A stretch of 64,000 nucleotides of DNA, from positions 63,550,324 through 63,614,323 of the forward strand of contig CM026426.1 of NCBI GenBank assembly GCA_014871385.1, read 5' to 3'. Position 1 is the first letter of the stretch. Each line of letters starts with the position of its first letter. Both the position numbers and the translations under genes were made by a program. The notes beneath the pieces were generated by a model that did no database searches, was not told the DNA's origin, and saw nothing but the letters and a program-made list of their open reading frames with translations. Source of the stretch: Ceratodon purpureus (taxonomy: Eukaryota; Streptophyta; Bryopsida; Pseudoditrichales; Ditrichaceae). Below, in pieces: positions 8,135 through 63,138 of this stretch.

Positions 8135-8157
8135 AACCCTCTCACCCCTCGCCGCCC

Positions 8158-32988: not shown

Positions 32989-33139
32989 CGAGGGTGTTAG
33001 GGTTTGGAGTTCCTTTTTGCGAACTGGAAGTAGAGAGTGAAAGAGCGGTGAGGTGTCCTTGTCTTTTCCGATTCACCGGCAGTTGGATTGCCGGGTTTCT
33101 TGCTGTCGGATCGTAGAGGGAGAGAAGTGAGGAGTAGAG

Positions 33140-35335
33140 ATGGCGCGCGTACAGTGTTGCGTCCTTAGCCCCGGAACTCCAGTGAAGGAATCGGATATGG
33201 AGGAACTGATCACCGACCTCACTCGGATGAGGTGTGAGGGATTGTTGGCACGGCCGTGGTTACTGAAAAGTGAGGTGATGGTGAGGGAGGTCCTGGAGGG
33301 TCCGGACAACCGGTGGGATAATACGGTCCGAGGCAAGCCCACGCTGTGGAATGCGGAACAGTGGGCGGAAGCTTACGGTTTCGAGCAGAAGGGACTCCTT
33401 TGGGCGACCCGGACGGACCAGTACGTGCAGGATAGGTTCCACGGGAAGATCCATAGGAACAATGGATACGAGATAGACGCCTGCAAGGATAGGAGGCAGA
33501 GGCAGGTCTTAGCTTTCCTCGTTCCGATCCTGTATCCGCAGAAACCGGCACAAGTCACCATTACGGTCGGGAATACCATCCTCGGAGCGTATACAGGAGA
33601 ACGCCCGGTGAATTGGGCTGCACTCATGGCGGAAGTGGTGCAGAAGATGGTTCCGACGATCGGAAAGAAGCCGACCCCACTCTCCCCTTACCTCTTTCAC
33701 CTTTACCATACGTATGACTTGCTGACCGATAAGGAGGACGAGACGTACACGCACGCGAAGAACTGCCTCAACTTCTCGGAGATTCCGCCCGGAATGGAAC
33801 CCGATCCGAGAGGTGAGCCCTCTGATACAACGGACTCGGAAGATGAGGACGATACGAGGGAGGTTCCGAACCCTGGCGCTGCTAGGGCTCAGTCCAGATC
33901 GAGATCGGAGCAGCCAGCGTCACGACATGCGGAACCGTCTACGGCCCGGGGAGATCCGGAACGGAGAGAGGTCAGTTCCGATCGGGGATTTCCGGTGGAC
34001 CTGTTTCGGGGGATTCGGGAGGAGACTCATCGGGCTCAAGCTTCTTACGATCGGATCGAAACCCTGTTCCGGAGGGTCTGTACAGCGCTGGGAGGGTGCT
34101 TACCGGAAGAGGTGATCCGAGAAGTGGAGTTGTTGAAGGATGCCCCAACTCTCCGGAGTGAGAAGAAGCGGCTGGAGCTTCAGTTGCAGGAGTTGACGAA
34201 GGAGCTGGCGGCGAAGAGTGACGAGATCCGTAAGTTCCACGCCGAGCAGGAGGAGACTTTGGGGGAGCTTCGGAAGTTGGTGGGAAGTTCGGGAGCGGTA
34301 ATCAACAAGGCCCGGCTGTTCGATGAGAACGTAGTGCAGCCGGCTGATTTCGAGGACAAGCAGAAGATCATCAAGATCCTCTCCAAATGCGAGCACTCGA
34401 TGAACATGATCCTGAAGAAGGTCCGGCAGCTACTCAATCCGAGCACCGGAAGTCCCAGTCTCGTAGGCGCTGGCCGGGGTCTTCCGCTCCCCGGATCGCC
34501 CTCTCGTGCCGTGGTAGGAGAATCTCGCGGGGTTGGGTTCCGAACCCCGATAGGGAGTAACCTCCAAGCAGCAGAACAGATGACGGTCGAAGAGGCCGCC
34601 ATGACAAATCGGACGATTGCGGAGGCGATCCGGGAAGTCCAAGCACAGGCGGCGTCACCCGGAACCAGTACAGTCCAGCAGAGCTGCGCGATCCCCACCG
34701 GACAGGTGCAAGTGACCGGAACGACAGTCACCGAGAGGCGGATCGAGGAGAGGACGGTTTCGGAACAGGTGACTCGGACCGTGCCGCCGGATGTTCTTCC
34801 ACGACTCGGAGATGAAGTGATCATAGCGAAGTACCGAGGGGAGGCAGCGGGACCGGAATGGGGACGACCTATTTCACCACCCGGACGGACCCGAGTAACT
34901 CAGGAGGGGGGATTGACCCCTTCACCCACAGCCAAGACCGGAACGGTGACGCCTACTCCCACCGGAACGCCAGCAGCAGGTTCCCCTCCGAACACTGCCG
35001 GTGAGTTCCGGAGGTTGCGGAAAAGGAAGGAACCGATTACAATTTCCGAGTCCGACTCAGAGACACATGGGAGCTCTCCGGTCAGGACCACCGGAACTGA
35101 AACTCAGACTCCGACGTCCGGAACTCCTCCCGCACATATGATTCCGAAATCGCCCAATTCTCCCAAACCCCGGATCGTTACCCGGTTGTCCTTGGAGGCT
35201 CAGGAGAGAGAGTCAAAGGCGGAACGGAGTGCTAGGCGCAAGGCGGCACGAGCAGCAGGGGCGGGCGGATCAGAGCCGCGGGTGACCAGGTCGAAGGATC
35301 GCGAGCAGGAGAGCCACAAGAAGACAAAGAAGTGA
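33140..35335 (+). CDS. LTR-encoded 731-aa accessory protein (5' LTR copy)
   Basis: An intact ORF lying wholly inside the LTR. The ATG context (GAGATGGCG) is strong. Layout by residue: 1-230 a globular part containing LWNAEQWAEAYGF, RRQRQVLAFLVPILYP, PVNWAALMAEVVQKM and LSPYLFHLYHTYDLLTDKE, a pattern I associate with the putative plant transposon protein/plant mobile-type domain; 235-290 an acidic then Arg/Ser-rich linker; about 325-385 a coiled coil rich in Leu/Glu/Lys; 430-650 a Pro/Thr/Gly-rich region; 650-731 basic patches (RRLRKRKE and a Lys/Arg tail) suggesting nuclear import or nucleic-acid binding. It is not gag, pol or env. Codons keep the element-wide CGGA/TCCG bias. Function unknown; DNA binding or element regulation is inference. 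Arg298 here is Trp in the other copy. Confidence 0.8.
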   Translation: MARVQCCVLSPGTPVKESDMEELITDLTRMRCEGLLARPWLLKSEVMVREVLEGPDNRWDNTVRGKPTLWNAEQWAEAYGFEQKGLLWATRTDQYVQDRFHGKIHRNNGYEIDACKDRRQRQVLAFLVPILYPQKPAQVTITVGNTILGAYTGERPVNWAALMAEVVQKMVPTIGKKPTPLSPYLFHLYHTYDLLTDKEDETYTHAKNCLNFSEIPPGMEPDPRGEPSDTTDSEDEDDTREVPNPGAARAQSRSRSEQPASRHAEPSTARGDPERREVSSDRGFPVDLFRGIREETHRAQASYDRIETLFRRVCTALGGCLPEEVIREVELLKDAPTLRSEKKRLELQLQELTKELAAKSDEIRKFHAEQEETLGELRKLVGSSGAVINKARLFDENVVQPADFEDKQKIIKILSKCEHSMNMILKKVRQLLNPSTGSPSLVGAGRGLPLPGSPSRAVVGESRGVGFRTPIGSNLQAAEQMTVEEAAMTNRTIAEAIREVQAQAASPGTSTVQQSCAIPTGQVQVTGTTVTERRIEERTVSEQVTRTVPPDVLPRLGDEVIIAKYRGEAAGPEWGRPISPPGRTRVTQEGGLTPSPTAKTGTVTPTPTGTPAAGSPPNTAGEFRRLRKRKEPITISESDSETHGSSPVRTTGTETQTPTSGTPPAHMIPKSPNSPKPRIVTRLSLEAQERESKAERSARRKAARAAGAGGSEPRVTRSKDREQESHKKTKK

Positions 35336-42290: not shown

Positions 42291-42310
42291 TGTTCGCGGG
42301 GACTCTCACA

Positions 42311-42691: not shown

Positions 42692-42699
42692 TATATAAG
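42692..42699 (+). promoter_or_regulatory. TATA box of 3' LTR
   Basis: TATATAAG, the copy of the 5' LTR box. It could drive the second copy of the LTR ORF, and readthrough into the neighbouring DNA. Confidence 0.55.
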
Positions 42700-42850
42700 C
42701 GAGGGTGTTAGGGTTTGGAGTTCCTTTTTGCGAACTGGAAGTAGAGAGTGAAAGAGCGGTGAGGTGTCCTTGTCTTTTCCGATTCACCGGCAGTTGGATT
42801 GCCGGGTTTCTTGCTGTCGGATCGTAGAGGGAGAGAAGTGAGGAGTAGAG

Positions 42851-45046
42851 ATGGCGCGCGTACAGTGTTGCGTCCTTAGCCCCGGAACTCCAGTGAAGGA
42901 ATCGGATATGGAGGAACTGATCACCGACCTCACTCGGATGAGGTGTGAGGGATTGTTGGCACGGCCGTGGTTACTGAAAAGTGAGGTGATGGTGAGGGAG
43001 GTCCTGGAGGGTCCGGACAACCGGTGGGATAATACGGTCCGAGGCAAGCCCACGCTGTGGAATGCGGAACAGTGGGCGGAAGCTTACGGTTTCGAGCAGA
43101 AGGGACTCCTTTGGGCGACCCGGACGGACCAGTACGTGCAGGATAGGTTCCACGGGAAGATCCATAGGAACAATGGATACGAGATAGACGCCTGCAAGGA
43201 TAGGAGGCAGAGGCAGGTCTTAGCTTTCCTCGTTCCGATCCTGTATCCGCAGAAACCGGCACAAGTCACCATTACGGTCGGGAATACCATCCTCGGAGCG
43301 TATACAGGAGAACGCCCGGTGAATTGGGCTGCACTCATGGCGGAAGTGGTGCAGAAGATGGTTCCGACGATCGGAAAGAAGCCGACCCCACTCTCCCCTT
43401 ACCTCTTTCACCTTTACCATACGTATGACTTGCTGACCGATAAGGAGGACGAGACGTACACGCACGCGAAGAACTGCCTCAACTTCTCGGAGATTCCGCC
43501 CGGAATGGAACCCGATCCGAGAGGTGAGCCCTCTGATACAACGGACTCGGAAGATGAGGACGATACGAGGGAGGTTCCGAACCCTGGCGCTGCTAGGGCT
43601 CAGTCCAGATCGAGATCGGAGCAGCCAGCGTCACGACATGCGGAACCGTCTACGGCCCGGGGAGATCCGGAACGGAGAGAGGTCAGTTCCGATCGGGGAT
43701 TTCCGGTGGACCTGTTTCGGGGGATTCGGGAGGAGACTCATTGGGCTCAAGCTTCTTACGATCGGATCGAAACCCTGTTCCGGAGGGTCTGTACAGCGCT
43801 GGGAGGGTGCTTACCGGAAGAGGTGATCCGAGAAGTGGAGTTGTTGAAGGATGCCCCAACTCTCCGGAGTGAGAAGAAGCGGCTGGAGCTTCAGTTGCAG
43901 GAGTTGACGAAGGAGCTGGCGGCGAAGAGTGACGAGATCCGTAAGTTCCACGCCGAGCAGGAGGAGACTTTGGGGGAGCTTCGGAAGTTGGTGGGAAGTT
44001 CGGGAGCGGTAATCAACAAGGCCCGGCTGTTCGATGAGAACGTAGTGCAGCCGGCTGATTTCGAGGACAAGCAGAAGATCATCAAGATCCTCTCCAAATG
44101 CGAGCACTCGATGAACATGATCCTGAAGAAGGTCCGGCAGCTACTCAATCCGAGCACCGGAAGTCCCAGTCTCGTAGGCGCTGGCCGGGGTCTTCCGCTC
44201 CCCGGATCGCCCTCTCGTGCCGTGGTAGGAGAATCTCGCGGGGTTGGGTTCCGAACCCCGATAGGGAGTAACCTCCAAGCAGCAGAACAGATGACGGTCG
44301 AAGAGGCCGCCATGACAAATCGGACGATTGCGGAGGCGATCCGGGAAGTCCAAGCACAGGCGGCGTCACCCGGAACCAGTACAGTCCAGCAGAGCTGCGC
44401 GATCCCCACCGGACAGGTGCAAGTGACCGGAACGACAGTCACCGAGAGGCGGATCGAGGAGAGGACGGTTTCGGAACAGGTGACTCGGACCGTGCCGCCG
44501 GATGTTCTTCCACGACTCGGAGATGAAGTGATCATAGCGAAGTACCGAGGGGAGGCAGCGGGACCGGAATGGGGACGACCTATTTCACCACCCGGACGGA
44601 CCCGAGTAACTCAGGAGGGGGGATTGACCCCTTCACCCACAGCCAAGACCGGAACGGTGACGCCTACTCCCACCGGAACGCCAGCAGCAGGTTCCCCTCC
44701 GAACACTGCCGGTGAGTTCCGGAGGTTGCGGAAAAGGAAGGAACCGATTACAATTTCCGAGTCCGACTCAGAGACACATGGGAGCTCTCCGGTCAGGACC
44801 ACCGGAACTGAAACTCAGACTCCGACGTCCGGAACTCCTCCCGCACATATGATTCCGAAATCGCCCAATTCTCCCAAACCCCGGATCGTTACCCGGTTGT
44901 CCTTGGAGGCTCAGGAGAGAGAGTCAAAGGCGGAACGGAGTGCTAGGCGCAAGGCGGCACGAGCAGCAGGGGCGGGCGGATCAGAGCCGCGGGTGACCAG
45001 GTCGAAGGATCGCGAGCAGGAGAGCCACAAGAAGACAAAGAAGTGA
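42851..45046 (+). CDS. LTR-encoded 731-aa accessory protein (3' LTR copy)
   Basis: An intact second copy of the LTR ORF, the same protein except Trp for Arg at residue 298 (TGG for CGG, a CpG deamination). Reverse transcription regenerates both LTRs from one template, so the copies were identical at insertion and this change came after. Because it has its own TATA box, this copy could be expressed independently of the genomic RNA. Domains are as in the 5' copy: globular N-terminal part, acidic and Arg/Ser linker, coiled coil, Pro/Thr-rich part, basic end. Confidence 0.8.
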   Translation: MARVQCCVLSPGTPVKESDMEELITDLTRMRCEGLLARPWLLKSEVMVREVLEGPDNRWDNTVRGKPTLWNAEQWAEAYGFEQKGLLWATRTDQYVQDRFHGKIHRNNGYEIDACKDRRQRQVLAFLVPILYPQKPAQVTITVGNTILGAYTGERPVNWAALMAEVVQKMVPTIGKKPTPLSPYLFHLYHTYDLLTDKEDETYTHAKNCLNFSEIPPGMEPDPRGEPSDTTDSEDEDDTREVPNPGAARAQSRSRSEQPASRHAEPSTARGDPERREVSSDRGFPVDLFRGIREETHWAQASYDRIETLFRRVCTALGGCLPEEVIREVELLKDAPTLRSEKKRLELQLQELTKELAAKSDEIRKFHAEQEETLGELRKLVGSSGAVINKARLFDENVVQPADFEDKQKIIKILSKCEHSMNMILKKVRQLLNPSTGSPSLVGAGRGLPLPGSPSRAVVGESRGVGFRTPIGSNLQAAEQMTVEEAAMTNRTIAEAIREVQAQAASPGTSTVQQSCAIPTGQVQVTGTTVTERRIEERTVSEQVTRTVPPDVLPRLGDEVIIAKYRGEAAGPEWGRPISPPGRTRVTQEGGLTPSPTAKTGTVTPTPTGTPAAGSPPNTAGEFRRLRKRKEPITISESDSETHGSSPVRTTGTETQTPTSGTPPAHMIPKSPNSPKPRIVTRLSLEAQERESKAERSARRKAARAAGAGGSEPRVTRSKDREQESHKKTKK

Positions 45047-45980: not shown

Positions 45981-45985
45981 CCTTT
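45981..45985. repeat. target-site duplication CCTTT (right)
   Basis: Pairs with 32611-32615 and fixes the right end of element 1. Confidence 0.9.
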
Positions 45986-47602: not shown

Positions 47603-47708
47603 CTGCAGATTTGACAGTAGGTGTCGTTAGATTCACGGATTAGAGTTTTGTAGGTTAGGGCTCGGAAACCAGTATCAAAAACATCAAAACAGATTGGAGA
47701 GATAATAC

Positions 47709-49799
47709 CTCGGTCATGAATCCCCCCCACTGGCGGAAGCGGTGGTGCCAGAATGACAGCCACTGATCGAGTTTGATGAGCCCGCTCTCGCCAACAACCC
47801 CGGTGGATGCCCACCATGCTCGCAACGCGTGGTACAGAGTTTCCGCCTCTGCCATGCTGGTCGCATTCTTGTACTGAGTGCACATCTTCTTGTGTTGTTC
47901 CCAGAGTTCTTCGGGGAAGTGCTTCTGCGTATACGCGACCATGTTCTGAGTCCAGTGGAACAAGCACGACCTCTCCCGGTCCTCCATTGGGTCCTCTTTG
48001 TTGCCATTGCCGTAAAGGATTCGCACTGCATTCCAATTCGCCTGTGCGTTATCGGCCATGAACCCCTTGAAGTTCGGCGCTGCAACGCCATTGATCTCCA
48101 TGACCAGGTTCAGGTTTTTCCAGAAGACGAGCTGGGCCTCCGTGTCCTCGGACTGCATGTCGCAAGTGGCGATTGTCATCACCCTGCAGTAGGTGGCGTC
48201 GTACACATGGCACGCCATCGTCGACCAGTCTTTGACACGTTTTACATGGTCAAACATGATCCATGCGTTCTCCAAGTCGCCACCTGCTTGCATACGGCTG
48301 ACCAAGTCGACACCACTTCCCGGCCCGACCTCCGACATCTTGAAGACGAAGACTTTGTCACGCATAGATCCCTGACCAGGAAACCTATTCTCCTGGACGT
48401 ACGCCCAGAGACTGTTTCCACGGAGCTTGGTGATACTGTCCATGATTCCGTACCTTTTGAATTTTTTGAAGGTGGCGACTTTGTTGCGGATGTTTGGTGA
48501 CGCCATGTCTTTGCAACGATCCAAAACAGGAACCAGCTCCTCCATGGTCAGCTTCCTCGGTGGTGCATCCTCGGGCTGTAGAAGGTAGCTTCCGATGAGG
48601 AGTTTGCTCGCCTCCAGGACAACGGCGCTCTTTGTTGCTTTGTTGTTCATCTCTACGTGCTCTTCTATTAAGCTACTAATCTCTGCTTTAGAGTCTCTGT
48701 AGTCTCCAACTTTCACTAGATGATCATGTGTTCCTATGTGAATACAAGCTCTAGTCTGATTCGGTTTGCCCACAACGTAATAAATCTTAGCCTCGGATGT
48801 AGCTACACATGATGGAGGTTCTTTACATACCTTGCAAACTAGCGTCGAGTCAGATGGAGGAGGCTGATCCATGAGAAAAGCTTGCAGGGTACAGCCTTCA
48901 AACTCAGTCTCGTTAACCTCGAAGATCTTGGGAACACGCTTCAGGAAGTCACACTCCTCGTTCGTGCAACGCACCCATCCGACGCAGTTGGAACTTCGAA
49001 AAGACAGTCCGAAGTCGTTTTTGATGTTTGTTGTGATGGTCTTGGTCCACAAGTGTCCATCGTATCGCTTGTCCATTCCCTGCATAGACTTAGCGGCGAG
49101 CTTAGAGGATCCTGCAGCAGCTGGGGGCAACTCAAAAAGAACCGGACCATCAAACTTCGCAGGCAAGTACTCTACTCTCTCGTGTCTAATAGTGGAATAG
49201 TCTATCTTTTTCAAAATGTTTTTTGACCCACGCGTCTTAGCAAGCTGTTGAAGGAGGGGGACAATGCTAACTGTGACCTGGGACAATGGAGGAGAGACAT
49301 TGGAAGGAGGAGCATCTGCGTGGACCTTAGGCACCAACTTGACGGGACTGACTTCGTCATCAGAAGAGAGAGATATGACGGTCGGAGGAGGTTTCTCTAC
49401 ATCTGAAGTCTCGGTACCAGGCTCGACTTTGACTTTGACATCACGAGGTAAGGAAGTCTGAATTGTGCAAGTAGAAGAGCGAAGGGAGGTGAGGATCTTA
49501 GTGGATGCAGCCATCAGAGAATCAGTAAGACCGTAGACTCTATAGGATCCAGGGAGGAGTCTCCACTGCAACATATTGTTGTCATCTCTCATTGAAGGTT
49601 GCCCGAGGGTGTGGGTAACCTCGGCAGTAACGTCATCAAAGATGTCCTCCTCTATACTGATAGAATCCTCACGGAAATGGAATCTGAGACTCAGGCGAAG
49701 AGAGGAAACTGTAGCTAGACCATCGTCATCAACGCGATACCTAAGGGGGATGCCCATGCCTTGGGCGTACAGACAGACCATCCCCATGTTCGCAGGCAA
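47709..49799 (-). pseudogene. MuDR-like transposase, first exon
   Basis: Starts at an ATG at 49799. A long N-terminal region with Ser/Pro-rich linkers leads to a Cys/His cluster (WVRCTNEECDFLKR, VCKVCKEPPSC, ACIHIGTHDHL) like the WRKY-GCM1 fingers of MULE transposases. The MULE DDE core follows: VYDATYCRVMTIA (Asp), SEDTEAQLVFWKNL, GFMADNAQANWNAV (Asp) and RSCLFHWTQNM (the C-x2-H motif), then a helical stretch with Glu-rich AEAETLYHALRAWW. The exon ends at a GTATTA donor (47708) in phase with the acceptor at 47603. This exon is intact on its own; the gene is broken downstream. Terminal inverted repeats were not located. Confidence 0.8.
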
Positions 49800-50034
49800 C
49801 TCTGTAGTAGTAGTGGTTGTAATTGGTAAAATTTACAAATAGTGGTAAGTCATGGGAATAGGTCTTTTCGTTTAGCTTTTAACGTAACTAAAGGTCACTG
49901 TAGTAAGTAAAGAATGTATAGAATGCAAAGTATTTCCTTAAAAGAATCTCTTTATAACTCTAATGTCTTAATTACCCCAAGTCACATAAAACCCAAGTAA
50001 TCCAAACTCTCAATTGGTTCAAGGGTAATGGGAG
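49800..50034. other. boundary DNA between MULE and motif-array region
   Basis: AT-rich, no coding sequence. It should hold the 5' leader and perhaps the terminal repeat of the MULE, and the edge of element 2. Neither edge could be fixed. The 11-bp palindrome of the next region is absent here. Confidence 0.4.
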
Positions 50035-53000
50035 TTCAATTTGACAAGTACCATCTCTCGGTTTATTGCCATCACTCCCTTCCAAGTTCAATTAGACAAT
50101 GCATTTATTATGCATATGCAAGTTCATTCCTTACTAGGTTAGAATCTAGTGTTCAACCTATTTATGCCTATGAATGATGCTTTGGGATATGTTATGATAG
50201 ATTAACTTATCTCAAGCAACTCCTTGCTTGTCTTCATCTTTTTCCTCCCATCCATCGCATTTCAAATAGACATGTAATCACTGTCTACTCATTCACATTC
50301 AATCATACTCCAACTCTACCATTCATCACAACTATGCTTCTCAATTGTATTACTCAATTACAATGACTGTACTATTGCTCAGTTGAATACATTCAAGTTT
50401 TATTATAATGAGAACTAATAATCACTAAGGCTGATCACTCCTTAATAATTAATGTCACTTTTATCCATCAATGTACTCAATCTGGCTTCCATAAACTCTA
50501 AGTCATTCTCAGTCTTCTATTTCAGATGGCCAATCTAATTTAAAAGACTATCAAGTAATACTCACTTCACTGTTCCAGTACTCACATGGAACTCTCATTC
50601 TCCATAATTCCCATTCACAACAATGCAATGTCAATTGGACAAACTGTTGTGTTTATTTTCCATAATTTCTATTTTCTATTCACTCAGTAACTCTTCCTTC
50701 GTTCTGAGTTCAAATAGACAATCTCACCCACTCTTCACTTTGCTCCATCAATATCTTCGATTTCAAATAGACAGTATCCATTTCAATTAGACAGTATCCA
50801 GTGTGAGTCACCACATTCACTGTAACTCTCACCAACTCTCCACTGTGTCAATTAGACATGGTCCATGCAAGTCAAGTTGACAATGCATGCATGCCCATGG
50901 ATGCATACCGAACCACCATCTTGTCCATTTGACCAGTGATAACTAGACATTATGCAGCAAGTAATATGAATTCAATTGTCAATTAGACAGTAGCCATTGG
51001 ATCAAACTATTCATTCTATCTCCCATAGTCTACATATAAATTCACTGTTCGGCAGATCTGCAGTTTCAATTTGACAATAAGCTTTGCAAATCAATTAGAC
51101 AGTAATCAGTTTGTTCCAGTTCTCCATTCTGATTCTACAGTTCTGCAGATTAATACACTGTGCATCGAAGCTATAGTTCAAATTGACAAAGAGCATTGTG
51201 AATCAATTAAACAGTGAGCTACTCAGAGTCAAGTTGACAATCAATTAGACAATGGAATTCTATTTTTATATTTTTTACATAATGTGACTATCACTCACAC
51301 AGTGTTGTGTGGTGTGGTGAAGTAATTCTTTCTTCTTCCTTAATTCCTAGTTATGCCTTAATTTCTAAAGGGTGTGCCTGTACGTAGAGTCAATTTGACA
51401 AGTCGTGTCTCTAGGTAGGGCCATGTCCCCTGAATTCTACACTATTGTCCATTTGACTCTCAACCAGATTTCTACAGCCACTATCTACATGGATTTCAAA
51501 TTGACATGGTAACTTGGTCCTATTTACACTGTTTTTGCTGAAAAGGACTTTTCTCAAAAAAAGTCAGCTCACATAGCCCCCCTCTTTGTCTACTTGACTC
51601 CCGGCAAGTTTCACATTTACAGCATTGTCTACTAGACACTATGTCAACTAGACTCAAAAATTATATACAAAGATTAGCTTGCACACCCACTGTAACTACT
51701 GTCAACTAGACATGGTGACGTCGGTGGTGATTACGGTGCTGGTCACCGTAATGGCTCTCCTTCTGTATCCGCTGCGCCATGAGCTTGGACACCTCCCTTC
51801 TCACTTCATCATCCTTCCGAAGTAATTCAGTGTTATTGGAATGCTGGAAGGTTAGCCAGTTGTCAATGGCTATCTTCCGAGTTCCCCTGAATTCGTTGAT
51901 GAAGCATCCATTAGACCCGTAAAGAAAGTGAGTCATGGCCATGACTTCCAGCATTCTCCCCCAACGACTTGAGTGGTAACGGAGCTTGAGGTTGATCAAG
52001 AACTCCGGCCTCCTCTCATCGTAGCGGTTCACATTCACCACCACCTTGAAATCCCTACATATCCGAGCTAAAAACTTAGAAAATATGGCTGCTCGGAAAC
52101 ACACAGGGTCGGTGTGTGTGTGGTGAATCTGCCAGAAGCCCTCATAGGCCGTGGCACAATTCCATGCCGTGTCAAATTGACCAGGGATCAGTGGCCAATT
52201 ATACTCCACCGAGTCAATTAGACTATCTGGAGCCCACTTGAATCTTCTTCTACAGTCGCAGAAATGTCCATTTGTCCTCACAGCCTCAGGAGCCGCATCG
52301 GTCCAATTGACATTTACTATCTCCTTGTAGATCAAATCCCATGACCGCTCCTCCCTTCGAGACAGTCCGTAATCCTCCAGCAGCCACTCAATCGCAGTCC
52401 ACGTGGGTAGCGGAAAAACCGCTTCATTGTCAAATAGACTTGCATAATTCCCTAAGTACTTGACTGTTAAGGGGGATCCTGTAACCGGTGTTCGAATGGA
52501 CAGCCACCCCGGTGCCTTGTATGTGGGTGGAGGCAAGGTCAACTCGACTTGAAGATCATGGCTAGTGATGAGTAGGTGGTCCTTCTTCAACTCTCTCAAA
52601 GTGTCCATGATCTGCTGCCTCACCTTGTGCATCCCGTAGACATAGTGTGCTGTGGTCAACTCGCCTCTTTGAGCATAAGTCTCCCTCTCCAGCACACATG
52701 ACAACTTGACAAGGATGTTATCACGGTCGTCGAACTCCTTGAGCAGCCCCTCCAGAGTTGCTGTCCACTCCTTGAGCTCCTCACTTGGCACCTTCTCCGC
52801 AACATCCATCACCTGTCTACTCGAATCACCCATCTTCACCAGTCTGTGACTCTCCACCGACATGTCAAGTTGACGTCTCTTCTGGAGTTGCTCCTCCAGT
52901 GTTGTATAATACAACACCACTCGAGCTCCCAAGTGACCTATGGGGAGAAACAACTTCTTCTGGTCGGTCAATTGGACATCGCCTCTTGCGATCATCTCAC

Positions 53001-56000
53001 AGATGAGATTCTGCTGATTAGCATGTCTACTAGACGCTGCCCATACCGCATCGAAATCACCGCTGTCCAATAGACATCCCCTGTCTTTCCCCACCATAGC
53101 CAACCAGTCATCCCTTTGCAATTCGTATGCATGGAAAAGGGAATAACTTGGTGGTGATGTCAAGTCGACCTTCCAAAGTTCTCCTCTCAATGCCCTGTTC
53201 TCCATCCGGGCCTCCTGCAACTGCTTCTTACCAATCTCGATAGTACGGTGGTACAATTCGTTATTGGTCTTCAGAGTCGCATAATCCGAGGGGTTGACAA
53301 CCTTCACCATCGGATTTTTCTTCAAGCTTTCCAACTCTGCCTTGAGCTTTTTCTTCTCATTCCTCTCCTCGGTGCAGAGCTTGGAAATGGCGATCTTGGC
53401 ATCATTCAGTTGGTCAAATTGACGTTGAAGTTCGATGCGGTGCTGCTTCTCATCGTTATACAACTCTTGGAACGACTTCCCAGTGTCGATCTCAATATCT
53501 GCAACAGTAGGCTTGGTCAATTCCTCATTCAATTCCGCTAAGTTAGCCAACTGTGTATTGAGCCTTCGTATATCTTCCACAGCTAGGTTGTTCTCAGTGG
53601 TCAAGTTGAACACTGTACGCTCCAATTCCTTGATCTTCAACCGTAGATGCGTTTCTCTCACCAGTGCATCCTTGAGCTGTGCAGCCACCTCAGTCTGCGT
53701 GAGCTGCAACGCTGGTTGCCTTGCAGGTTCACGGTTGTCTACTTGACTGGCTGATCTTGCTCCTCTTCCCAACCTCGGGTTCAGTTCAAATAGACATTGA
53801 GGTAAGGAGTCATCCACCCTCCTCTTCTTTACTTTGTTGGCTCTCGAGGATGATGGAGTCGAGGCTCTAGGCTCTGGTTCCCTTGTCAAATTGAGCAAGT
53901 CTGGAAGCACTCTCACCGGTCCAGTTGACACTCCTGCATCTCCCGGGTTTGGCGGCTTAGTCAGCTCCGAGAGGTAAATCGCACTGTAGAGTGTGATTGG
54001 ATACCGCGTGTGTTTCTTACTAATCTCCACCTTGATGTTGTCAAATAGAATGTTTCCCCAACTCAATTTGACACCATTCCACCCGTAAATCGCAGCTGCT
54101 ACTCCTTCCTTCGACATGATCAGAGGCCCCTTCTCCGCCAGCATAATCCTCTGATTGAAGAAAAGTAGCCACTCCTTCCACGTCTCTTTCGCATTCACCA
54201 ATTTATAGCCACTCTGTGTCTTGGCAGCTCTGTCAAAGACGTTGGTCAAATCGTCCTCCGAAATACCGCCCACTTCCTCCGTCAACAACCTGTCCCCTTG
54301 GTGCAACTTCAGCATTTTGGAGATGGCTGTCGAGTTGAACTGTACGCTTCTTCCATCCACCACGGCCATCCCTCTTGATCCATACTCCGAAGAAGTCAGG
54401 AACTGATTGATCCTCTCATCATCCTGATCCTCGAAGACAACCATCACGAAGTCCCAAAGTCCTGCCTTCACAAAGTTCTCCCGGTTGGCTTCAAACTGCG
54501 GCCATGCCTCCCGGTCAATCTTCTTCAATTCCAAGTGTTCAATTTGACGTCTTGGTCCACTTGACAGGTCCTGTTGCATTGCCTCCGCAAGCACAGTCTT
54601 CTTTGACTTCTTGTTCTTCATCGCCTTCACTTTGGGCCGAGCAATTGGCCTTGTCAATTTGACTGATCCTGCAACTTCGGGTTGTGGTCGATCTTGATCA
54701 GTTCCTCTGCCTTCTCTGTCAACTTGACCTTCGTTTACCATTGTTCCTTCTTTCTGTCTATTAGACTACACACTCGGCAGTTAGTTTGCTTCAATTCTTA
54801 CTTTGTCTAATTGAAATTTTTCTCGGCATTGACTCTCCCTGAAACTCTCGGCACTGTCTACTTGAACTCTCGGGAATTTTATCTTTGTTATTTCCTTACT
54901 TTTAAAACTATAAAACACTTCTTCCACTCGGCAATCACTTCTATCCCTAATTTTCTACTTTACAATTATCTAAGCATACATTCCATTGAAAATATTAAGC
55001 TTCGTTCTTTCTGTTCTTCTCCTTCCTTTCTCTCGGTAATCAGTTTGTAATGTTTTCCTACACTACTATCATCACGCATCACAGCACCAAGTTTCAGTTT
55101 CGTTCCTTTGATCTTTTATCCTTTCTTTCTCTCGGCAAGTTGTGTTTTGTGTCTCCTAACATCTTTGTCTACTGGACAGTCACCATTCTTCACAAGTAAC
55201 AGTTCAATTGGACAGGCAAGAAGAAGATGCGAAGACAACATGCATTCGACTTGACACAACAGAATGGATGCAATGAAACTCACCCGAATGTATGTGTCAA
55301 CTTGACTTCGCACTGTATGCCTCTCGGTATGCAATGCTTCGTCTTCTCCCTCCTGTCGCACTATTTCCAATTGACACACTCACAATGATCAGAAAACTCT
55401 GAGTCCAGTCGACCTAATGTATCGTATCCCACTGTTTCTCACATCGATATTATCGCAACATCTCTATTAGCAACATTGTGTCCACTTGACCTAACTGTTT
55501 CTATGCTAATCAGGTTGTCCAATTGACAAAACATCATGCGAACTCAATGACAACACAACTCACCCTCAGTATGCAACCTGAAACACCCTTTGCTCCCCCT
55601 TCGATTACTCAATCTTCTCGCACACACTCGCTGCAGCAATGTGGTCTTCCAGTTCACTCCTTTCTCTTTCTCGGATCGCTCAGTATCTCTCACAGCTTGG
55701 TTACACAAAATGCAACAATGCGACCCTCGACTTAAAGTGCTTTTTCTCTCAGTCCTCTCGGTATCTCGCTTCGTCTCGTTCTGATCTCCTCACAAGTAAG
55801 AAACCTCAGTCCACTTAACAACTATCTCTCTCCACTCCTAACCCTGATCGCTCACAGCGTAACACTCTGTCTACTTGACCTCCGTTTCCTCACTCCCTCG
55901 CACTCTGTGTTTCTCAAGAATGCGTGTTGTTTGAGGTTTCCTGTTTCAGTTTTGGAGGAGATGATGTTGTCTATTCGACTCGACCATTTCCCTTTGTCTA

Positions 56001-56160
56001 TTTGACAGTTAGTGGGATCTTGGCACTCATTTCCATGCAACGTGGTCATCATGATCACAGCCCCCATTTCGAGTTATCATATCAGCCGTCTTTCCACTCA
56101 CTAATTGTATTTTCTGATCATTACTAACTTACTCATCATTTTAGTTAGTGTCTACTTGTC
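50035..56160. repeat. dense array of dispersed 11-bp palindrome GTCNANTNGAC
   Basis: About 60-70 copies by eye in 6.1 kb, with variants such as GTCAATTAGAC, GTCAAGTTGAC, GTCTACTTGAC, GTCAAATTGAC and TTCAAATAGAC. Fully matching examples are at 50847-50857, 50871-50881, 51228-51238, 51389-51399, 51701-51711, 52213-52223, 52864-52874, 55296-55306 and 55996-56006. Spacing is irregular (about 20-250 bp). Copies occur in non-coding DNA on both sides of the 1011-codon ORF and inside it. About one is expected by chance if only seven positions are fixed. Copies are rare in gag-pro and pol (56.4-62.9 kb) and in the MULE. Confidence 0.9.
51706..54741 (-). CDS. 1011-aa accessory protein of element 2
   Basis: An intact ORF from ATG at 54741 to TAG at 51706, downstream of pol on the same strand. 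The N-terminus is basic (RPKVKAMKNKKSKKT). A globular part about residues 70-270 (EWLLFFNQRIM, VAAAIYGWNGVKLSWGNILF, TRYPITLYSAIYLSEL) has the layout of the plant transposon protein/plant mobile-type domain also suspected in the element 1 LTR ORF. A Ser/Arg linker is followed by a long coiled coil at about 340-490. The C-terminal globular half is rich in Trp and His (RRFKWAPDSL, FWQIHHTHTDP) and ends in a His/Arg tail. About 25-30 copies of the 11-bp palindrome lie within the coding sequence and are read in all three frames. Function unknown; a protein binding the element's own motif is inference. Confidence 0.75.
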   Translation of the reverse strand: MVNEGQVDREGRGTDQDRPQPEVAGSVKLTRPIARPKVKAMKNKKSKKTVLAEAMQQDLSSGPRRQIEHLELKKIDREAWPQFEANRENFVKAGLWDFVMVVFEDQDDERINQFLTSSEYGSRGMAVVDGRSVQFNSTAISKMLKLHQGDRLLTEEVGGISEDDLTNVFDRAAKTQSGYKLVNAKETWKEWLLFFNQRIMLAEKGPLIMSKEGVAAAIYGWNGVKLSWGNILFDNIKVEISKKHTRYPITLYSAIYLSELTKPPNPGDAGVSTGPVRVLPDLLNLTREPEPRASTPSSSRANKVKKRRVDDSLPQCLFELNPRLGRGARSASQVDNREPARQPALQLTQTEVAAQLKDALVRETHLRLKIKELERTVFNLTTENNLAVEDIRRLNTQLANLAELNEELTKPTVADIEIDTGKSFQELYNDEKQHRIELQRQFDQLNDAKIAISKLCTEERNEKKKLKAELESLKKNPMVKVVNPSDYATLKTNNELYHRTIEIGKKQLQEARMENRALRGELWKVDLTSPPSYSLFHAYELQRDDWLAMVGKDRGCLLDSGDFDAVWAASSRHANQQNLICEMIARGDVQLTDQKKLFLPIGHLGARVVLYYTTLEEQLQKRRQLDMSVESHRLVKMGDSSRQVMDVAEKVPSEELKEWTATLEGLLKEFDDRDNILVKLSCVLERETYAQRGELTTAHYVYGMHKVRQQIMDTLRELKKDHLLITSHDLQVELTLPPPTYKAPGWLSIRTPVTGSPLTVKYLGNYASLFDNEAVFPLPTWTAIEWLLEDYGLSRREERSWDLIYKEIVNVNWTDAAPEAVRTNGHFCDCRRRFKWAPDSLIDSVEYNWPLIPGQFDTAWNCATAYEGFWQIHHTHTDPVCFRAAIFSKFLARICRDFKVVVNVNRYDERRPEFLINLKLRYHSSRWGRMLEVMAMTHFLYGSNGCFINEFRGTRKIAIDNWLTFQHSNNTELLRKDDEVRREVSKLMAQRIQKESHYGDQHRNHHRRHHV

Positions 56161-56338
56161 AATTAGTAATTTCATTTGCTTCGAAAAATTCTCAAGTTCA
56201 GAATTTAAATTTGTTGAACTTTTGCTTTTTGTAACTTAATTTTTTAGATCGCTGGTTTTTTAATTTCTTCAAAATTTCACAGTTTCTAGTACTTAAGTAG
56301 GACAGTTTTTAAAAATTTTTAAATTTTTACCCTTACTG

Positions 56339-56350
56339 CCCCCCTCTTAA
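56339..56350 (-). other. polypurine tract of element 2
   Basis: On the minus strand TTAAGAGGGGGG follows shortly after pol and a TTGAGGACAAG stretch, an arrangement common just upstream of the 3' LTR in plant Ty3 elements. The expected TG of an LTR start is not obvious directly after it. Confidence 0.5.
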
Positions 56351-56365
56351 ATCTAGAACTTGTCC

Positions 56366-59300
56366 TCAAGTTATGTATGGTTTCAAACGAAAACCATTAT
56401 ATCTTGTGGCATGAATTTTTCCTGCAAAATCTTGAAGTTCAACTGAACCATTGGGATACGATTTTAATACCCGATATGGTCCAAACCAACGCATTCTAAA
56501 TTTTCCTGGAAATTTTTGAAATCGGCTATCATATAATAATACTAAATCATTAGGATTCAAAACTTTGGGTTCCAATTTGCTATCATAATATGTTTTGCGA
56601 TGTTTTTGAATAGCTTCATTATTAAGATACGCTTGGGCTCTCGTTTCATCTAATTTTTCGAGCATATAAAGCCTATGTCTTAAAGATTCTTCATCTCCTA
56701 ATCGTTCATCTAATGCAATTCTTAAAGACGGGAGTTCCATTTCAATTGGTAAGATAGCTTCTTGACCGTAAACTAATTGAAATGGAGTAAATTTTGTAGA
56801 TACTTTAAATGCACATCGATAAGCCCATAATGCATCTGGTACTCTTGCGTCCCAATCTGTATTTGAACCCTGTACAGTTTTAGTAATTATCCGACATAAT
56901 ATACCGTTTGTTTTCTCTGTCTGACCATTAGCACGGGGGTGATACGGTGTAGATTTTCTATGTTTAATTGAATATTTTTCAGTTAGTTGTTCAATTATTT
57001 CATTAAGAAAATGAGTTCCCCGATCACTTACTAATTCTTTTGGACATCCAAATCTTGTAATAATATTTTCATATAAAAATTTAGCAACAGTTTTAGCATC
57101 ATCGGTTTTCGTAGGTTGAGCCTCTGCCCATTTAGTTACATATTCAGTTGCAATTAATATGTATCTATTTCGACCATGTCTACTAGGTGGTTTAATAGGT
57201 CCTACAAAATCAATTCCCCATTTCTCAAACGGCGTTTGAGCTAAAATTGGATTTAAAGGCATTGCCTTTGAAGGTGTAGGTTTTCCCACCCTTTGGCATG
57301 GATCACATTTTTTGGTATATCTATGTGCATCCCCAAAGAGTGTTGGCCACCAATATCCGGATTGTAACGCTTTATGTGCAGTTACCATTCCGGCAAAATG
57401 ACCGCCACATGCAGCGTCATGACAACCTTTAAGAATTAATGGTACCTCACTTGGATTAATACATCTCCGTAAAAGTCCGTCTTTACCCCTTTTATATAGA
57501 ACTTTTGCAATTAATGTATATGGTTGAGATTTAAATATTAATTTTTGTTTTTGTTTATCTGTATAGTCTTGAGGGAAGGTATTGGTACTCAAGTAATGAA
57601 TAACATCAGCATATTCTGCTGGAATGATATCCACTTGAAAAATATGCGCATCTGGAAAACTATCATCTATGGATTCTGGATTCACTTCCTTACTAATTCG
57701 TGATAAGAAATCGGCATTGGCATGTTTTTTGCCAGGCCTTACATTAACCGTAAAATCAAATTCTTGAAGTAACAATACCCATCTAGCTATTCTCCCACTC
57801 AATTGAGGTTTATTAACCATATATTTAAGTGCATCATGATCTACATGAAAAGTGAACTTATAACCTAATAAATAATGTCTATATTTTTGGACTGAATATA
57901 TCATTCCTAACCCTTCTCTCTCCGTTACAGAGTAATTTTTCTCAGCAGCACTTAATTGTCTACTAGAAAAATATATAGGTCGATCATGACCTTTTGCGTC
58001 TTTTTGACTGAGAACACTTCCAATGGCATAATTTGATGCATCTACATAAACTTCAAACGGTTTCTCCCAATCTGGTGGTATTAGAATGGGAGCATTACTA
58101 AGCCGTTTCTTAAGTTTATTGAATGCTTTTGTGCACTCTTCTGTCCAAACACCAGGAGTATTGGTTTGTTTTGTTAGATGTGTTAAAGGAGCTGCTACTT
58201 CTGCATAAAAGTAGATAAATCTTCTATAATATCCGGAAGCTCCTAAAAACCCTTTAAGTTCTGTCATATGTTTAGGTATTTCTAATTTTTTGATAGCAGC
58301 TACTTTATCTGGATCAACACCTATACCTTCTTTTGAAACTATATGACCCACTAATCGTCCACAAGGTACAGCGAATTCAGACTTGGCTGCGTTTATTGAA
58401 ATACCATATTTTTCACATTGTTCAAAACATTTCTTTAAACATTTCTGGTGTTCAGCTTTAGGACTAAAGACACAAAAATCATCTAAGAAAATTTCAATAA
58501 ATTTTCTTAGATATTCCTGAAAAGCTGTTGTCATTGCTCTTTGGAAAGTAGCTGGTGCATTGCACAATCCAAAGGGCATGACATTATAAGCAAAGGTTCC
58601 CCAATCAGTTGTAAAAGTTGTTAGAGGTTTATCTTCCGGGGCGATTTGTACTTGATTATAACCAGAAAATCCATCTAAAAAAGAATAACATTCATGCCCT
58701 GCTACACCATCAAGGATTGCATCCGTGAAGGGTAAAGGAAAATAATCTTTTTTAGTGACACTATTTAATTTCCTGAAATCCTGACAAATCCTTAACTTCC
58801 CGTTCTTCTTAGGCACCACAACAATTGGAGATACCCACTCACTATAAGGTACTGGATATATAAAATTACATTCTAGTAGTTTATCTATTTCCTCTTTAAC
58901 CATGAGAGAATATTTTGGGTTCATACGATATTGTCTTTGTCTTACCGGTTTTGTATTAGGTTCTAAAATAATTCTATGTTGACAGACTTCTGGAGGTATT
59001 CCTTTAAGGTCTTTATAAGTCCATGCAAATGCATCTTTACATTCTTTAAAGAATTTAAACCATTGTTCATATTCATTTGAATTTAATCCTTCATAAATTC
59101 TTATGTTTTTGGGTTCCTCTGAAGTTCCCAAATTCATATCAATGCAAGTGCTTTTAACAGGACTTATATTACTACCTTTTATGTGAGACATGTTTTCCAT
59201 TAATTCTTCAGAATCGCTCAAATATTGAGGTTCTAATTCCGACTCAATTTCGGCAGTTACATTAAGTACTGGCGAATTTTCCCATGCTAGAATAGCATCA

Positions 59301-59443
59301 TCTGAATCTACTTCGTTATTCAGAAAGGAATATTCTCCAGTCCCCAAACATCTAAACTCAGGCATTTTCTCTTGTTTGACTACTTTAGTACTTTCGCTAT
59401 TTGAATCATATGAGGCTTCAGAAGTGACATCTGTGTCTTCTTC
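56366..59443 (-). CDS. pol: element 2 Pol: RT, RNase H, integrase
   Basis: The frame continues from gag-pro past one TAA; the first ATG is at 59365. Reverse transcriptase has FLDGFSGYNQV and IFLDDFCVF. RNase H has VYVDASNYAIGS, EREGLGMIYSVQKY and FHVDHDALKYM. Integrase has an HHCC finger (HDAACGGHF ... CDPCQR) and GIDFVGP, VSDRGTHF and GQTEKTNG with 35 residues between the second Asp and the Glu. A GPY/F-like end (RWFGPYRVLKSYPNGSV) closes the protein at 56366. All catalytic residues are present. Base composition is AT-rich, unlike element 1, and the 11-bp palindrome is nearly absent. Confidence 0.95.
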   Translation of the reverse strand, partial: EEDTDVTSEASYDSNSESTKVVKQEKMPEFRCLGTGEYSFLNNEVDSDDAILAWENSPVLNVTAEIESELEPQYLSDSEELMENMSHIKGSNISPVKSTCIDMNLGTSEEPKNIRIYEGLNSNEYEQWFKFFKECKDAFAWTYKDLKGIPPEVCQHRIILEPNTKPVRQRQYRMNPKYSLMVKEEIDKLLECNFIYPVPYSEWVSPIVVVPKKNGKLRICQDFRKLNSVTKKDYFPLPFTDAILDGVAGHECYSFLDGFSGYNQVQIAPEDKPLTTFTTDWGTFAYNVMPFGLCNAPATFQRAMTTAFQEYLRKFIEIFLDDFCVFSPKAEHQKCLKKCFEQCEKYGISINAAKSEFAVPCGRLVGHIVSKEGIGVDPDKVAAIKKLEIPKHMTELKGFLGASGYYRRFIYFYAEVAAPLTHLTKQTNTPGVWTEECTKAFNKLKKRLSNAPILIPPDWEKPFEVYVDASNYAIGSVLSQKDAKGHDRPIYFSSRQLSAAEKNYSVTEREGLGMIYSVQKYRHYLLGYKFTFHVDHDALKYMVNKPQLSGRIARWVLLLQEFDFTVNVRPGKKHANADFLSRISKEVNPESIDDSFPDAHIFQVDIIPAEYADVIHYLSTNTFPQDYTDKQKQKLIFKSQPYTLIAKVLYKRGKDGLLRRCINPSEVPLILKGCHDAACGGHFAGMVTAHKALQSGYWWPTLFGDAHRYTKKCDPCQRVGKPTPSKAMPLNPILAQTPFEKWGIDFVGPIKPPSRHGRNRYILIATEYVTKWAEAQPTKTDDAKTVAKFLYENIITRFGCPKELVSDRGTHFLNEIIEQLTEKYSIKHRKSTPYHPRANGQTEKTNGILCRIITKTVQGSNTDWDARVPDALWAYRCAFKVSTKFTPFQLVYGQEAILPIEMELPSLRIALDERLGDEESLRHRLYMLEKLDETRAQAYLNNEAIQKHRKTYYDSKLEPKVLNPNDLVLLYDSRFQKFPGKFRMRWFGPYRVLKSYPNGSVELQDFAGKIHATRYNGFRLKPYIT

Positions 59444-59446
59444 TTA
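59444..59446 (-). promoter_or_regulatory. in-frame TAA between gag-pro and pol
   Basis: A single TAA followed by GAA is the only interruption between the 1140-codon gag-pro frame and pol. Pol could be made by readthrough or by starting at the ATG 26 codons later. Simple decay cannot be excluded from one copy. Confidence 0.5.
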
Positions 59447-62400
59447 AGTCTCACCATGATATTTAACTGGAAACATTGGTAATACAACCCGTTTCCCTTT
59501 TGCTTTTATAGTTAATGTTCCCTTTCCCCAATCATCTTTAGCTCTAGCAGATTTAAGCCATGGACGACCTAATAATATTGGGTATGTTGATATGGATTCA
59601 CTCACTTTAAAGATTATATAATTAATCTTAAAGTTAAGTCCTCCTATAGTTGTAACTATTCCTCTCAAAATACCCAATGGTACTACTCGACTTTGATCTG
59701 CCATTCTTAAGATAATAGGAGTGGAGGTCATATGAGTTAATCCTAGTTCTTCCATAGTGTCAACATTCATTAAGTTGACACTAGAACCACTATCTACTTG
59801 GACTCCTTCAATTAGAGAACCATCTATGACTACATCCACAGTAGGTGCTCCAGGGTCCAAGGATATATCATGCACATCTACGATTTTACTCCTTTTTCTA
59901 ACCAATGAAGAACTTAGTTCACCTCTACATTTAGGTGCTATTGCTAACAATTGCCTCAAAGATATGTCAGGTTGGATTTTATCCATATTTGTTAAGATAT
60001 CATATGGATTCATTCCCTCTGACAATTTCATTGTACGATTATACTTCCTTTTCTTAGGAATAGTTGGTGTTTCTTTTAGTTTCTTTTTAGGTGGTCTATA
60101 AAACGTAGGTAATGAATTTGAAGTACTAGGCAAGTTAGCAAAATCATTTGGTAAATCTTGAGGTAATATTGTAGGTTCTTCAATTGGTTGCTTACCCTTA
60201 TCCTTCTCCTTAGGTTCTTCTAATGGTATTGTTTTCTCACTATTTATGGGAATGTTTGGAGGTATTAAGGGAAATATTGGTTTAGGTTTTACAACATCCT
60301 TTTCCTTAACTACTTTCGAAGGTGTGTTGTTTTTTCTCACTCTACTACTTCTATAGTCACTATCAGAGCTGCTATGTTGATCACTTTCAACCATAGCCTT
60401 TTTGGCTTGTGCACGTGTTATATAAACCTCCTGAGGTTTATCTCTTTCATATTGTGTGATTTGATTCACATTCCTTGAGTTTTCAATTTCACTAAATTGA
60501 ACACTCTTTACAGGTGCTGGAGCTGTACAATTATTTGCTATATGACCACTTTGTTTACACCTCCCACATAAAGGATTATACCCAATTTGTTTCTTTGGAT
60601 TTGGACAATCTCTCGCCATATGTCCTAATTCCTGACAGTTATAACACACTAAGTGTTTTCCTTTCTCAGGAGTTCCATATCTATGGGTATTAGGATTAGT
60701 AGGTGGTCCATTCCACACAGGTGCGGCATTATAAGTATCATTCCACCTTGGTCTCCCATCTCCAGGTCTATAAGGTGGTCCTACATTTGGTCTAGTAAAC
60801 GGACGTTTTGAAGTTACACTATAAGGTGCTTTGTTATTATTTGTCCCGTTTGCCTGCAAATTAGAACTCACTGCAGCTACTACTTTCCCCAAATTCCAAC
60901 ATTTAGATACGTCATGAGGTCCTCCACAAAAACTACATTTAGGTTTATTACTAAATTCCCCACCTATCGGAGTAGAACACTCATTGGAAAGATGTCCATG
61001 TCCATTACAATTAGTGCACCACATATTGGTACGCATGTTTGTAGGTTTTGAACGTTTATCTTTCCCATGAGTTATTTGTACCGATAGTTCATTTAATTTT
61101 TTCTCTAATTTAGTAATGTTGTTCATTAATATATCATCTGTAGGGGCTTTAATGGCTAAGGGTTGAGGATTCATGACTGTGGGATTTGAGGGATAAGTCG
61201 AAACTGGTAGTTGTGATCTAGCTGGAGGTAAATAAGGATAATGATCACGGCCATAAGCATCCATGCCTTGAGCATGATCATAACCTTCTCTCCTAGGTGG
61301 ATATACTTCTGCATATTGTGCAAAATCAGTATTTACTCTAGCCTCTTCCCAAGTTTTAGCTTGTGTATAAGCACTAGCAATGTCTTGGGGGTTTCGTTCT
61401 TTTAAGTAAATTCTTAACTCATCAGGCCAAACCCCTCCTACAAAGGTACATGCTAATACTTGATCAGTTAACCCATGATTTGTCCATCTCTTCAGAAGAG
61501 CATTAAATCTTGTATAATAGGAATCTATACCCTCATTTATACCCATTCTTATAGTTCGAAATCTATCGATTAACCCTGGTATAAATGATCTAGGTCGAAA
61601 CCTATCAAGAAAAACTCTCCTTAAATCTTCCCATCTTGTGGGTACGGTTAGCAATTGGACATACCATTCATGAGCATCATCAAGCAATGTGCTTGGGAAA
61701 GTGCTTAAATATAAATGTTCAGGTAACTGATTTGCTTGTGCAACCACTCTAAATCTTTCCAAATGTCTATCGGGGTCAGACCCTGGATATCCATGGTACA
61801 TAGGATATGGTGCGATGTTTAAAATCCTTTGTTGTGCCATAATATTAGGTGGTAAAGTCTGTGGTGGAGGTGGTAGTGGTGGTGGGGGTGGTGGAGGTCT
61901 AGGATGAGGAGTTGGAGGTCTGGGAGGAGGTCGTGAAGGAGGTGAAGAAGAAGGTCTTAACAATTCTTCTTCACTGGTTTCTCTCCTTGTATCACTACTC
62001 TCACTACTACTACTCCCAGAGGAATCTCCTGATGAAAATCTCCAACAATTTATCCCTTCCCAATCCTCATTACTTTCATCATTAGATGGTTCATAAGGGT
62101 TGGTAAAAGGTTGTATAGTTGGAAATGTTTCTGGAAGAGATACCTCATAAGCTACTTCCTCATCATTCCACTCTTTTCTATTGTCTTCTAATGAAATTTC
62201 CCTTATATATGTTTCAATAGGGGTTGTGGTTTCTACCTCAGTACTATCTTCAATATCATTAACCCAATTCTCTATACCTGAAACAAAGGTTTGTACAGCT
62301 TCGTCGAGGTAAGGTTTTGGTGTTTCAAAATTAGTTTGGGTTGGTGTTGAGAATTCAGGTAGGTTAGAAGGTTCTCCAACCTCTGTGGTAAATGGATTCT

Positions 62401-62866
62401 TCAAAGAACTCTCAAATTCTGAGGAAGAAGGTGTGACTAATTCTTCTACCTTCTTTCCCTTTTCAGAATTAATTTGAAGTGGGTTTACTTCACTTGAAGA
62501 TCCCCAGGTTAACCTCCTAAATGGTGGTGAGTGACAACATAAATAATGCGACCTTCTCAAACCTTCCTCCGGTAATTCTAAATCCTCATTCTTTAGAGAA
62601 CTTTGGTGTTGTTCTTCTATAGAAAGTGGATTTTGAATTGTTTCACTAACTTGGCTAGTTGAGGTATTAAGATTTGAGGGAATAGTTTCTTCTTTAAGTA
62701 CTGGGGATGGTGTTGAATTGTAAACAGGATTGGCAGATACTAATGTTAAGATCTGTTTTTCTTTCCTTTCAATCCGTTTTTTCAAACGTTCATTTCTTGC
62801 AATATTTTGCTTTTCTCTCAATTCTTTATCCTTCTCAGACATTGATAAATGCCATTTATGCTTCAA
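59447..62866 (-). CDS. gag-pro: element 2 Gag-protease
   Basis: Starts at ATG 62866. A long acidic/polar N-terminal region and a Pro-run precede the capsid domain (DPDRHLERFRVVAQANQLPE, DDAHEWYVQLL, WEDLRRVFLDRFRPRSF, VLACTFVGGVWPDEL). Four CCHC-type knuckles follow: CTNCNGHGHLSNEC, CSFCGGPHDVSKC, CYNCQELGHMARDC and CGRCKQSGHIANNC. After a basic and Pro-rich linker comes the aspartic protease (VQVDSGSSVNLMNVD with the canonical D-S-G, ILRMADQSRVVPLG, YPILLGRPWL). Gag packages the RNA, and protease cuts the polyprotein. The frame is intact over 1140 codons and ends at TAA 59444-59446. Confidence 0.9.
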
Positions 62867-63138
62867 GCATTGAAGCTTAGACCTAAATGATCTTCTATCC
62901 CCAATTTTACTTAAAGGAAAAGGATCACTTAATTTTGTTGTTCACTCTACCTTTTTCTTTTAACTATTATTTCCCTACTTCTCTTAAGAAAGTTTTTTAT
63001 GATTCTCCCAACCTTGTTTTGTTTTACAGGTGCTCTGAATTGTCTATAGTAGTTTTGTCGCCCAAGTTTGGCTAATTCCCTTAACCTTTCCTCCTCTACT
63101 TTTACCATTTTCTTTATTCCATTCAATTAAAATAAAGA

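Follow-up and report, generated by a model that had tools for sequence, protein, structure and literature searches.

Why a long terminal repeat (LTR) retrotransposon should carry one 11-bp palindrome some seventy times within about 6 kb is the question raised by a stretch of the Ceratodon purpureus genome, a 64,000-nucleotide portion of contig CM026426.1 (GCA_014871385.1, positions 63,550,324 to 63,614,323) that is referred to here as the window and numbered from its first nucleotide. The element in question, element 2, is a Ty3/gypsy LTR retrotransposon on the minus strand: it carries gag and a pol gene with reverse transcriptase (RT), RNase H and integrase in that order, placed between two LTRs. 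Between pol and the 3' LTR lies an extra open reading frame (ORF) whose product, P0001, is central to what follows. We put at roughly 0.6 the probability that the palindromes are bound by this protein, probably as a dimer, and that binding shields the element from host silencing. This reading is based on the excess of sites, their spread over the LTR, spacer and ORF, constraint on the sites at synonymous positions, the same word in a relative that is 42% identical, and a structural match to VANC21, the anti-silencing protein of the Arabidopsis transposon VANDAL21.

The palindrome, GTCNANTNGAC (probe form GTCAATTTGAC; half-site cores GTC and GAC), occurs 38 times as an exact match in the window, where 100 shuffles of the window gave a mean of 0.87 and a maximum of 4. 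All but one of these matches (at 14714) fall within 50035-56160, a region that contains 37 exact sites, 33 with one mismatch and 12 with two, as compared to 0.10, 2.47 and 25.7 in 300 dinucleotide shuffles of the same region; sites with two mismatches are thus below chance. The first-pass annotation, made from the letters alone, had described about 60-70 copies where roughly one was expected by chance, and its count holds (70), as does the clear excess over shuffled sequence that it had proposed as a check. It had read seven fixed positions; there are eight, with position 6 free and position 4 never G among the exact sites. The one-mismatch sites deviate mainly at an outer base (T at position 1 in 16 of 33, A at position 11 in 6 of 33).

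As the annotation had placed it, the array lies 3' of pol, covers most of the 3' LTR together with the extra-ORF cassette, and has its limits near 50.0 and 56.2 kb: the first site, with one mismatch, is at 50035 and the last at 56150, and the exact sites span 50630-56006. Coding and non-coding DNA are both occupied, with 30 of the 70 sites inside the extra ORF in all three frames; two exact sites straddle borders between parts and are therefore outside the per-part counts tabulated below. The density is 12.4 sites per kb in the LTR part (50035-51569), 10.1 in the extra ORF, 11.5 in the spacer upstream of it and 29 in the 136 bp between the LTR part and the ORF, whereas gag-pro and pol, where sites had been called rare, hold no exact and four one-mismatch sites in 6576 bp (0.6 per kb). 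Neither exact nor one-mismatch sites are present in element 1, a second LTR-bearing element of the window (32616-45981). The sites are isolated and form no part of a longer tandem repeat: for the 2404 pairs of sites separated by 35 bp or more, flank identity averages 7.54 of 24 positions, as compared to 7.30 at random places, and 27 pairs reach 13 of 24 (17.7 expected) and none reaches 15. Helical phasing was looked for in the site spacings and none was found.

The same genome (362 Mb) holds at least 46 rows matching the extra ORF at 45 places, scored from 195 candidates, 45 rows being at 92-100% identity and one at 82%. Thirty copies were aligned: the window copy plus the 29 that rank next among the 46 rows. 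Relative to the window copy, differences were counted in 58 of 8508 comparisons (0.7%) at the fixed positions of the 37 exact sites and in 9109 of 153983 (5.9%) at all other positions, figures to be read with the caveat that the shared ancestry of the copies makes the comparisons non-independent and that it was in the window copy that the sites had been selected. The pattern holds on the LTR side (5 of 2622 at fixed positions versus 1317 of 36843 at others), in the extra ORF (4 of 4031 versus 3501 of 79921) and in the spacer (49 of 1855 versus 4083 of 34391). At fourfold-degenerate third positions, differences number 2 of 551 within sites and 1270 of 10758 elsewhere, and the sites resist substitution about 9-fold overall and over 30-fold at fourfold sites. 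Shifted pseudo-motifs show 5.6-8.7% differences, and none of 5000 random placements was as low as the real sites (lowest 2.2%). For any one of the 37 sites, between 20 and 29 of the other 29 copies have it intact, and the number of exact sites per copy ranges from 28 to 39.

Within the extra ORF, 2000 synonymous-codon shuffles gave a mean of 0.88 exact sites and a maximum of 5; the 16 observed occupy all three frames. Of the 17 places at which the amino-acid sequence is compatible with an exact site, 16 are filled, which makes the array an example of protein-coding DNA shaped by what is probably a DNA-binding word. The constraint acts on DNA, at synonymous positions too. By position, differences amount to 0.1%-1.2% at the fixed bases, 2.7% at position 4, 2.0% at position 8 and 6.2% at the centre, which is the background level, with 2.3%-9.4% in the flanks; the centre varies while GTC and GAC are kept, as had been noticed at first reading. 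A palindrome with a free centre is the copy-to-copy footprint expected of a symmetric DNA-binding protein.

The word recurs in relatives of the element. A locus in the same genome, L049, encodes, with in-frame stops, a relative 42% identical to P0001 and 64% identical to another family member, P0124. It contains 14 exact sites in 2831 bp (0.07 expected), and the other like palindromes, from a set of 256, each occur at most once. Five of these sites stand at the same aligned place as in the window copy and nine elsewhere, one of the nine being unaligned and one facing a one-mismatch site. Relatives available as protein only were scored by the number of places able to encode the word, and P0124 (z 7.5) and P0126 (z 7.2) exceed all of 121 pol control proteins (at most 2.65), with 5 of 10 and 6 of 9 capable places, respectively, at new positions. 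A third protein-only relative, P0125, favours ATCNANTNGAT (9 places, z 6.1); at aligned sites VQLT is replaced by INLI and SLFD by NLFD, so that both half-sites are changed symmetrically. This alternative word is suggestive only, because the best of 256 motifs reaches 6.0 in 1 of the 121 control proteins. In P0127-P0133 the word-encoding test showed no comparable word, and a wider palindrome search revealed no clear second motif, a weak test in that its 5120 patterns excluded the 11-bp word itself. A second family in the same genome (L039-L045) has a homologous extra ORF 50-54% identical to P0127 and no comparable array in the ORF and its 1.5-kb flanks. Among eight P0127-like loci (L039-L046) the best palindrome has a z of 4.4, as compared to 24.2 in the window copy; with G runs in L042 and L044 set aside, the best gapped word reaches 6.0 (seven loci), and the best hexamer 5.9 (five loci examined). 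The array therefore belongs, as far as seen, to one subclade.

P0001 comprises an N-terminal domain, predicted long helices and a conserved C-terminal domain that defines the protein family P0124-P0133. A Foldseek search with the model of residues 68-280 returned one outstanding structural match, the part of VANC21 that was crystallised with its target DNA, and the predicted structure thus has this fold; no match to the whole 1019-residue model had an E below 0.25, and VANC21 ranked first in a second search. No sequence similarity between P0001 and VANC21 was detected, and DUF1985 was not listed in Pfam scans of P0001 and its relatives. The N-terminal domain weakly matches Transposase_32 (PF20167; E 0.044 for the window fragment, 2.9e-5 for the relative P0128), with scores of at most 24.5 bits against a curated cut-off of 45 and matches at E up to 1 in 3 of 12 family members. 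Sequence searches of PDB gave mostly coiled-coil or chance matches. The first 500 residues retrieved one relative and the C-terminal part eleven rows, and no relatives of the extra ORF were found in viral_contigs or genome_contigs.

That the palindromes are binding sites of a dimeric protein, as the first-pass annotation proposed, is supported by the free-centre footprint, by wobble positions 4 and 8 of the half-sites that vary independently (complementary in 12 of 37 sites, 13.4 expected), and by the predicted VANC21-like domain and long helices. P0001 is the likely binder, and the palindrome together with the predicted coiled coil makes binding as a dimer likely; by analogy with VANC21, the likely outcome is anti-silencing, with protection from DNA methylation. 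On this model a P0001 dimer would bind the palindromes and, once bound, would shield the LTRs and the 3' part of the element. The element would have come to carry its own recognition word in the LTRs and even in the coding DNA of the extra ORF, and the binder would thus be directed to long tracts of family members and to little besides.

Binding by the self-encoded protein might instead serve another end: it might activate transcription from the LTR, retain the DNA in the nucleus, help to partition it, or guide integration. Several observations weigh on this side: all DNA-level evidence is compatible with any self-binding protein, much of the LTR is filled by sites, and long predicted helices together with clusters of basic residues point to a protein that binds DNA in the nucleus, in whatever role. 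However, the single outstanding structural match is to an anti-silencing factor with its target DNA, and about 3 kb of site-bearing coding DNA would exceed the needs of a promoter. We regard these other ends as unlikely.

Less probable still is that a host transcription factor, for example of the WRKY type, binds the sites and drives the element. The annotation had noted that half-sites often read TTGAC, and on both strands of the array region TTGAC does occur 62 times (about 11 expected), 53 of these inside sites, with at least one TTGAC half in 30 of the 37 exact sites. The WRKY W-box has an invariant TTGAC core. Here the pentamer makes up 39 of 74 half-sites, 7 of the 37 sites lack it altogether, and copies have A, C or G in place of T there; the link to the W-box is not supported. 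Genome-wide, GTCHANTDGAC occurs 4873 times versus 2063 for the reversed control, but by a rough estimate most of this excess is explicable by 45 places with about 37 sites each plus the second LTRs; moreover, the motif tracks one subclade of the protein family.

An action in RNA, in which the palindrome, an inverted repeat on the element's transcript, folds into a small hairpin for packaging or export, is very improbable, as the stem would be limited to 4-5 bp and the independence of positions 4 and 8 noted above shows no preference for pairing. A mutational artefact, i.e. a functionless repeat spread by slippage or insertion, could cite a few short duplications in the LTR part (Tandem Repeats Finder (TRF) interval 50760-50800; 51091-51215 versus 50979-51103), but it is refuted because the sites resist substitution among copies, and it also faces their unrelated flanks and the sites that relatives carry at aligned coding places empty in the window copy.

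Self-targeted protection from silencing finds its closest parallel in VANC21 and VANDAL21. In both systems a transposable element encodes a protein and carries a dense short motif in itself, the motif differs between families, and the fold predicted for the N-terminal domain of P0001 is shared with VANC21. However, VANDAL21 is a Mu-like DNA transposon and element 2 an LTR retrotransposon, the Arabidopsis motif is YAGTATTAY rather than an 11-bp palindrome, and the VANC21 targets are non-coding tandem repeats, whereas the sites described here are isolated and lie partly inside coding DNA. Since the two differ in the type of element and in layout (tandem and non-coding for VANC21), and DUF1985 is not recognisable by sequence in P0001, we consider P0001 VANC-like in its working and do not file it as a VANC member. 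A comparable arrangement exists in Epstein-Barr virus, where the EBNA1 sites, which serve viral replication or segregation, are multiple copies of a single palindrome bound by a dimer that the virus itself encodes; element 2 resembles them in its repeated palindrome and proposed self-encoded dimer, but it is an integrated retrotransposon with sites spread across 6 kb that include coding DNA. In position and sense orientation the extra ORF is like the additional ORFs of plant Ty3/gypsy elements, including Athila-type ORFs with Transposase_32, whose functions are described, in the portions of the literature covered, as mostly unknown or debated; those portions mention no saturating motif, whereas the ORF of element 2 lies within an array of conserved sites.

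VANC21 recognises a short motif that is densely repeated in its own family of transposons and causes loss of DNA methylation over the whole element in Arabidopsis (PMC5735166), and host RNA-directed DNA methylation (RdDM) re-methylates non-coding regions of VANC-affected elements (PMC10398659). The anti-silencing activity demonstrated there by others is, for P0001, an analogy. A 2026 paper poses the question whether such ORF proteins of LTR elements modulate methylation (PMC12844716), and portions of PMC11728184, PMC7264820, PMC11963269, PMC12859917 and PMC13317346 were also drawn on. A literature search that covered titles, abstract openings and few subscription papers yielded no description of VANC-like proteins or of motif arrays in LTR retrotransposons. 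If P0001 does act as an anti-silencer aimed at its own element, Mu-like transposons are not alone in evading silencing through sequence-specific DNA binding, and the sequence reveals binder, word and targets alike. A broader and more tentative possibility is that VANC-type self-recognition also operates among plant LTR retrotransposons, where every family would encode its anti-silencer and carry, in LTRs and coding DNA, a word that shifts symmetrically with the protein (GTCNANTNGAC here, perhaps ATCNANTNGAT in P0125). Element 1, with CGGAW, would then be an independent second case, and the binders would be the seemingly functionless extra ORFs that bear Transposase_32-like domains in plants at large.

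Features of element 2 and ORFs of element 1 (window positions; sites given as exact + one mismatch)
Feature	Position	Strand	Sites	Remarks
Palindrome array GTCNANTNGAC	50035..56160	.	37 + 33	70 isolated 11-bp sites
gag-protease ORF	59444..62941	-	no exact	intact open frame
pol (RT, RNase H, integrase)	56366..59443	-	no exact	intact open frame
Non-coding spacer, pol to extra ORF	54766..56365	-	8 + 8	1.6 kb
Extra ORF	51706..54741	-	16 + 14	1011 aa from first ATG; open frame (P0001) extends to 54765; sense
N-terminal domain, residues 68-280	53926..54564	-		predicted VANC21-like fold
Predicted long helices, residues 357-536	53158..53697	-		probable coiled coil for dimerisation
C-terminal domain, residues 540-1000	51766..53148	-		conserved, invariant H/C residues; no Pfam family
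Gap, extra ORF to 3' LTR	51574..51705		3 + 0	
Polypurine tract CAAAGAGGGGGGCTA	51574..51588	-		directly before 3' LTR; putative role, by analogy
3' LTR	49818..51573	-	8 + 11	1756 bp; TGTGAGC...TACA on minus strand
734-aa ORF, element 1 LTR	33131..35335			
734-aa ORF, element 1 LTR	42842..45046			

The borders of the 3' LTR of element 2 were derived from other copies. By analogy with element 1, where an ORF lies inside the LTR, the array had been considered to be the LTR itself; this was dropped, as the other copies place the LTR at 49818-51573 and the extra ORF internally. The 5' LTR lies just outside the window (matched part G000:C6:63614983-63616517), and the two LTRs are 100% identical (rounded) over the part compared. 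Among the 120 pol matches listed of 4047, contigs show the highest identities (up to 85%); among the matches with a named source, the liverwort Riccia sorocarpa has the highest identity (52-53% over 86% of the length), and proteins of Rosa rugosa and Tanacetum score more bits at lower identity. No pol relatives were found in viral_contigs. A second short word, CTCGG[CT]A, occurs eight times in 54766-55800, in the spacer upstream of the extra ORF. A 725-aa frame (47655-49832, minus strand) extends to the outer end of the 3' LTR; by eye it resembles a Mutator-like transposase, and it gave no Pfam match above chance.

Element 1 has LTRs of about 3654 bp that are 99.95% identical, and its target-site duplication was read as CCTTT. 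The 734-aa ORF inside each LTR has no Pfam match and no detectable similarity to the VANC-like domain. A word distinct from the palindrome of element 2, CGGAA/TTCCG (and CGGAT), is dense over its full length, in coding and non-coding DNA and on both strands, and every part of the element has 13-16 CGGAA/TTCCG per kb, as compared to 0.6-2.9 elsewhere. Its four ORFs contain 49, 46, 32 and 72 copies of CGGAW, each above all 400 synonymous-codon shuffles; CGGAC, CGGAG and CCGAA are also raised, less strongly, and the word is thus not sharply bounded.

Two further parts of the window are of note. Positions 1-13000 show an extreme strand asymmetry, being C-rich and G-poor with a GC skew of -0.36 to -0.77 in 1-kb steps, and contain frames like those of non-LTR reverse transcriptases (for example 6440-8134), a type judged by eye. 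The frame at 29290-30276 on the minus strand resembles, by eye, a piggyBac-type transposase, which would be unusual in a land plant genome if confirmed.
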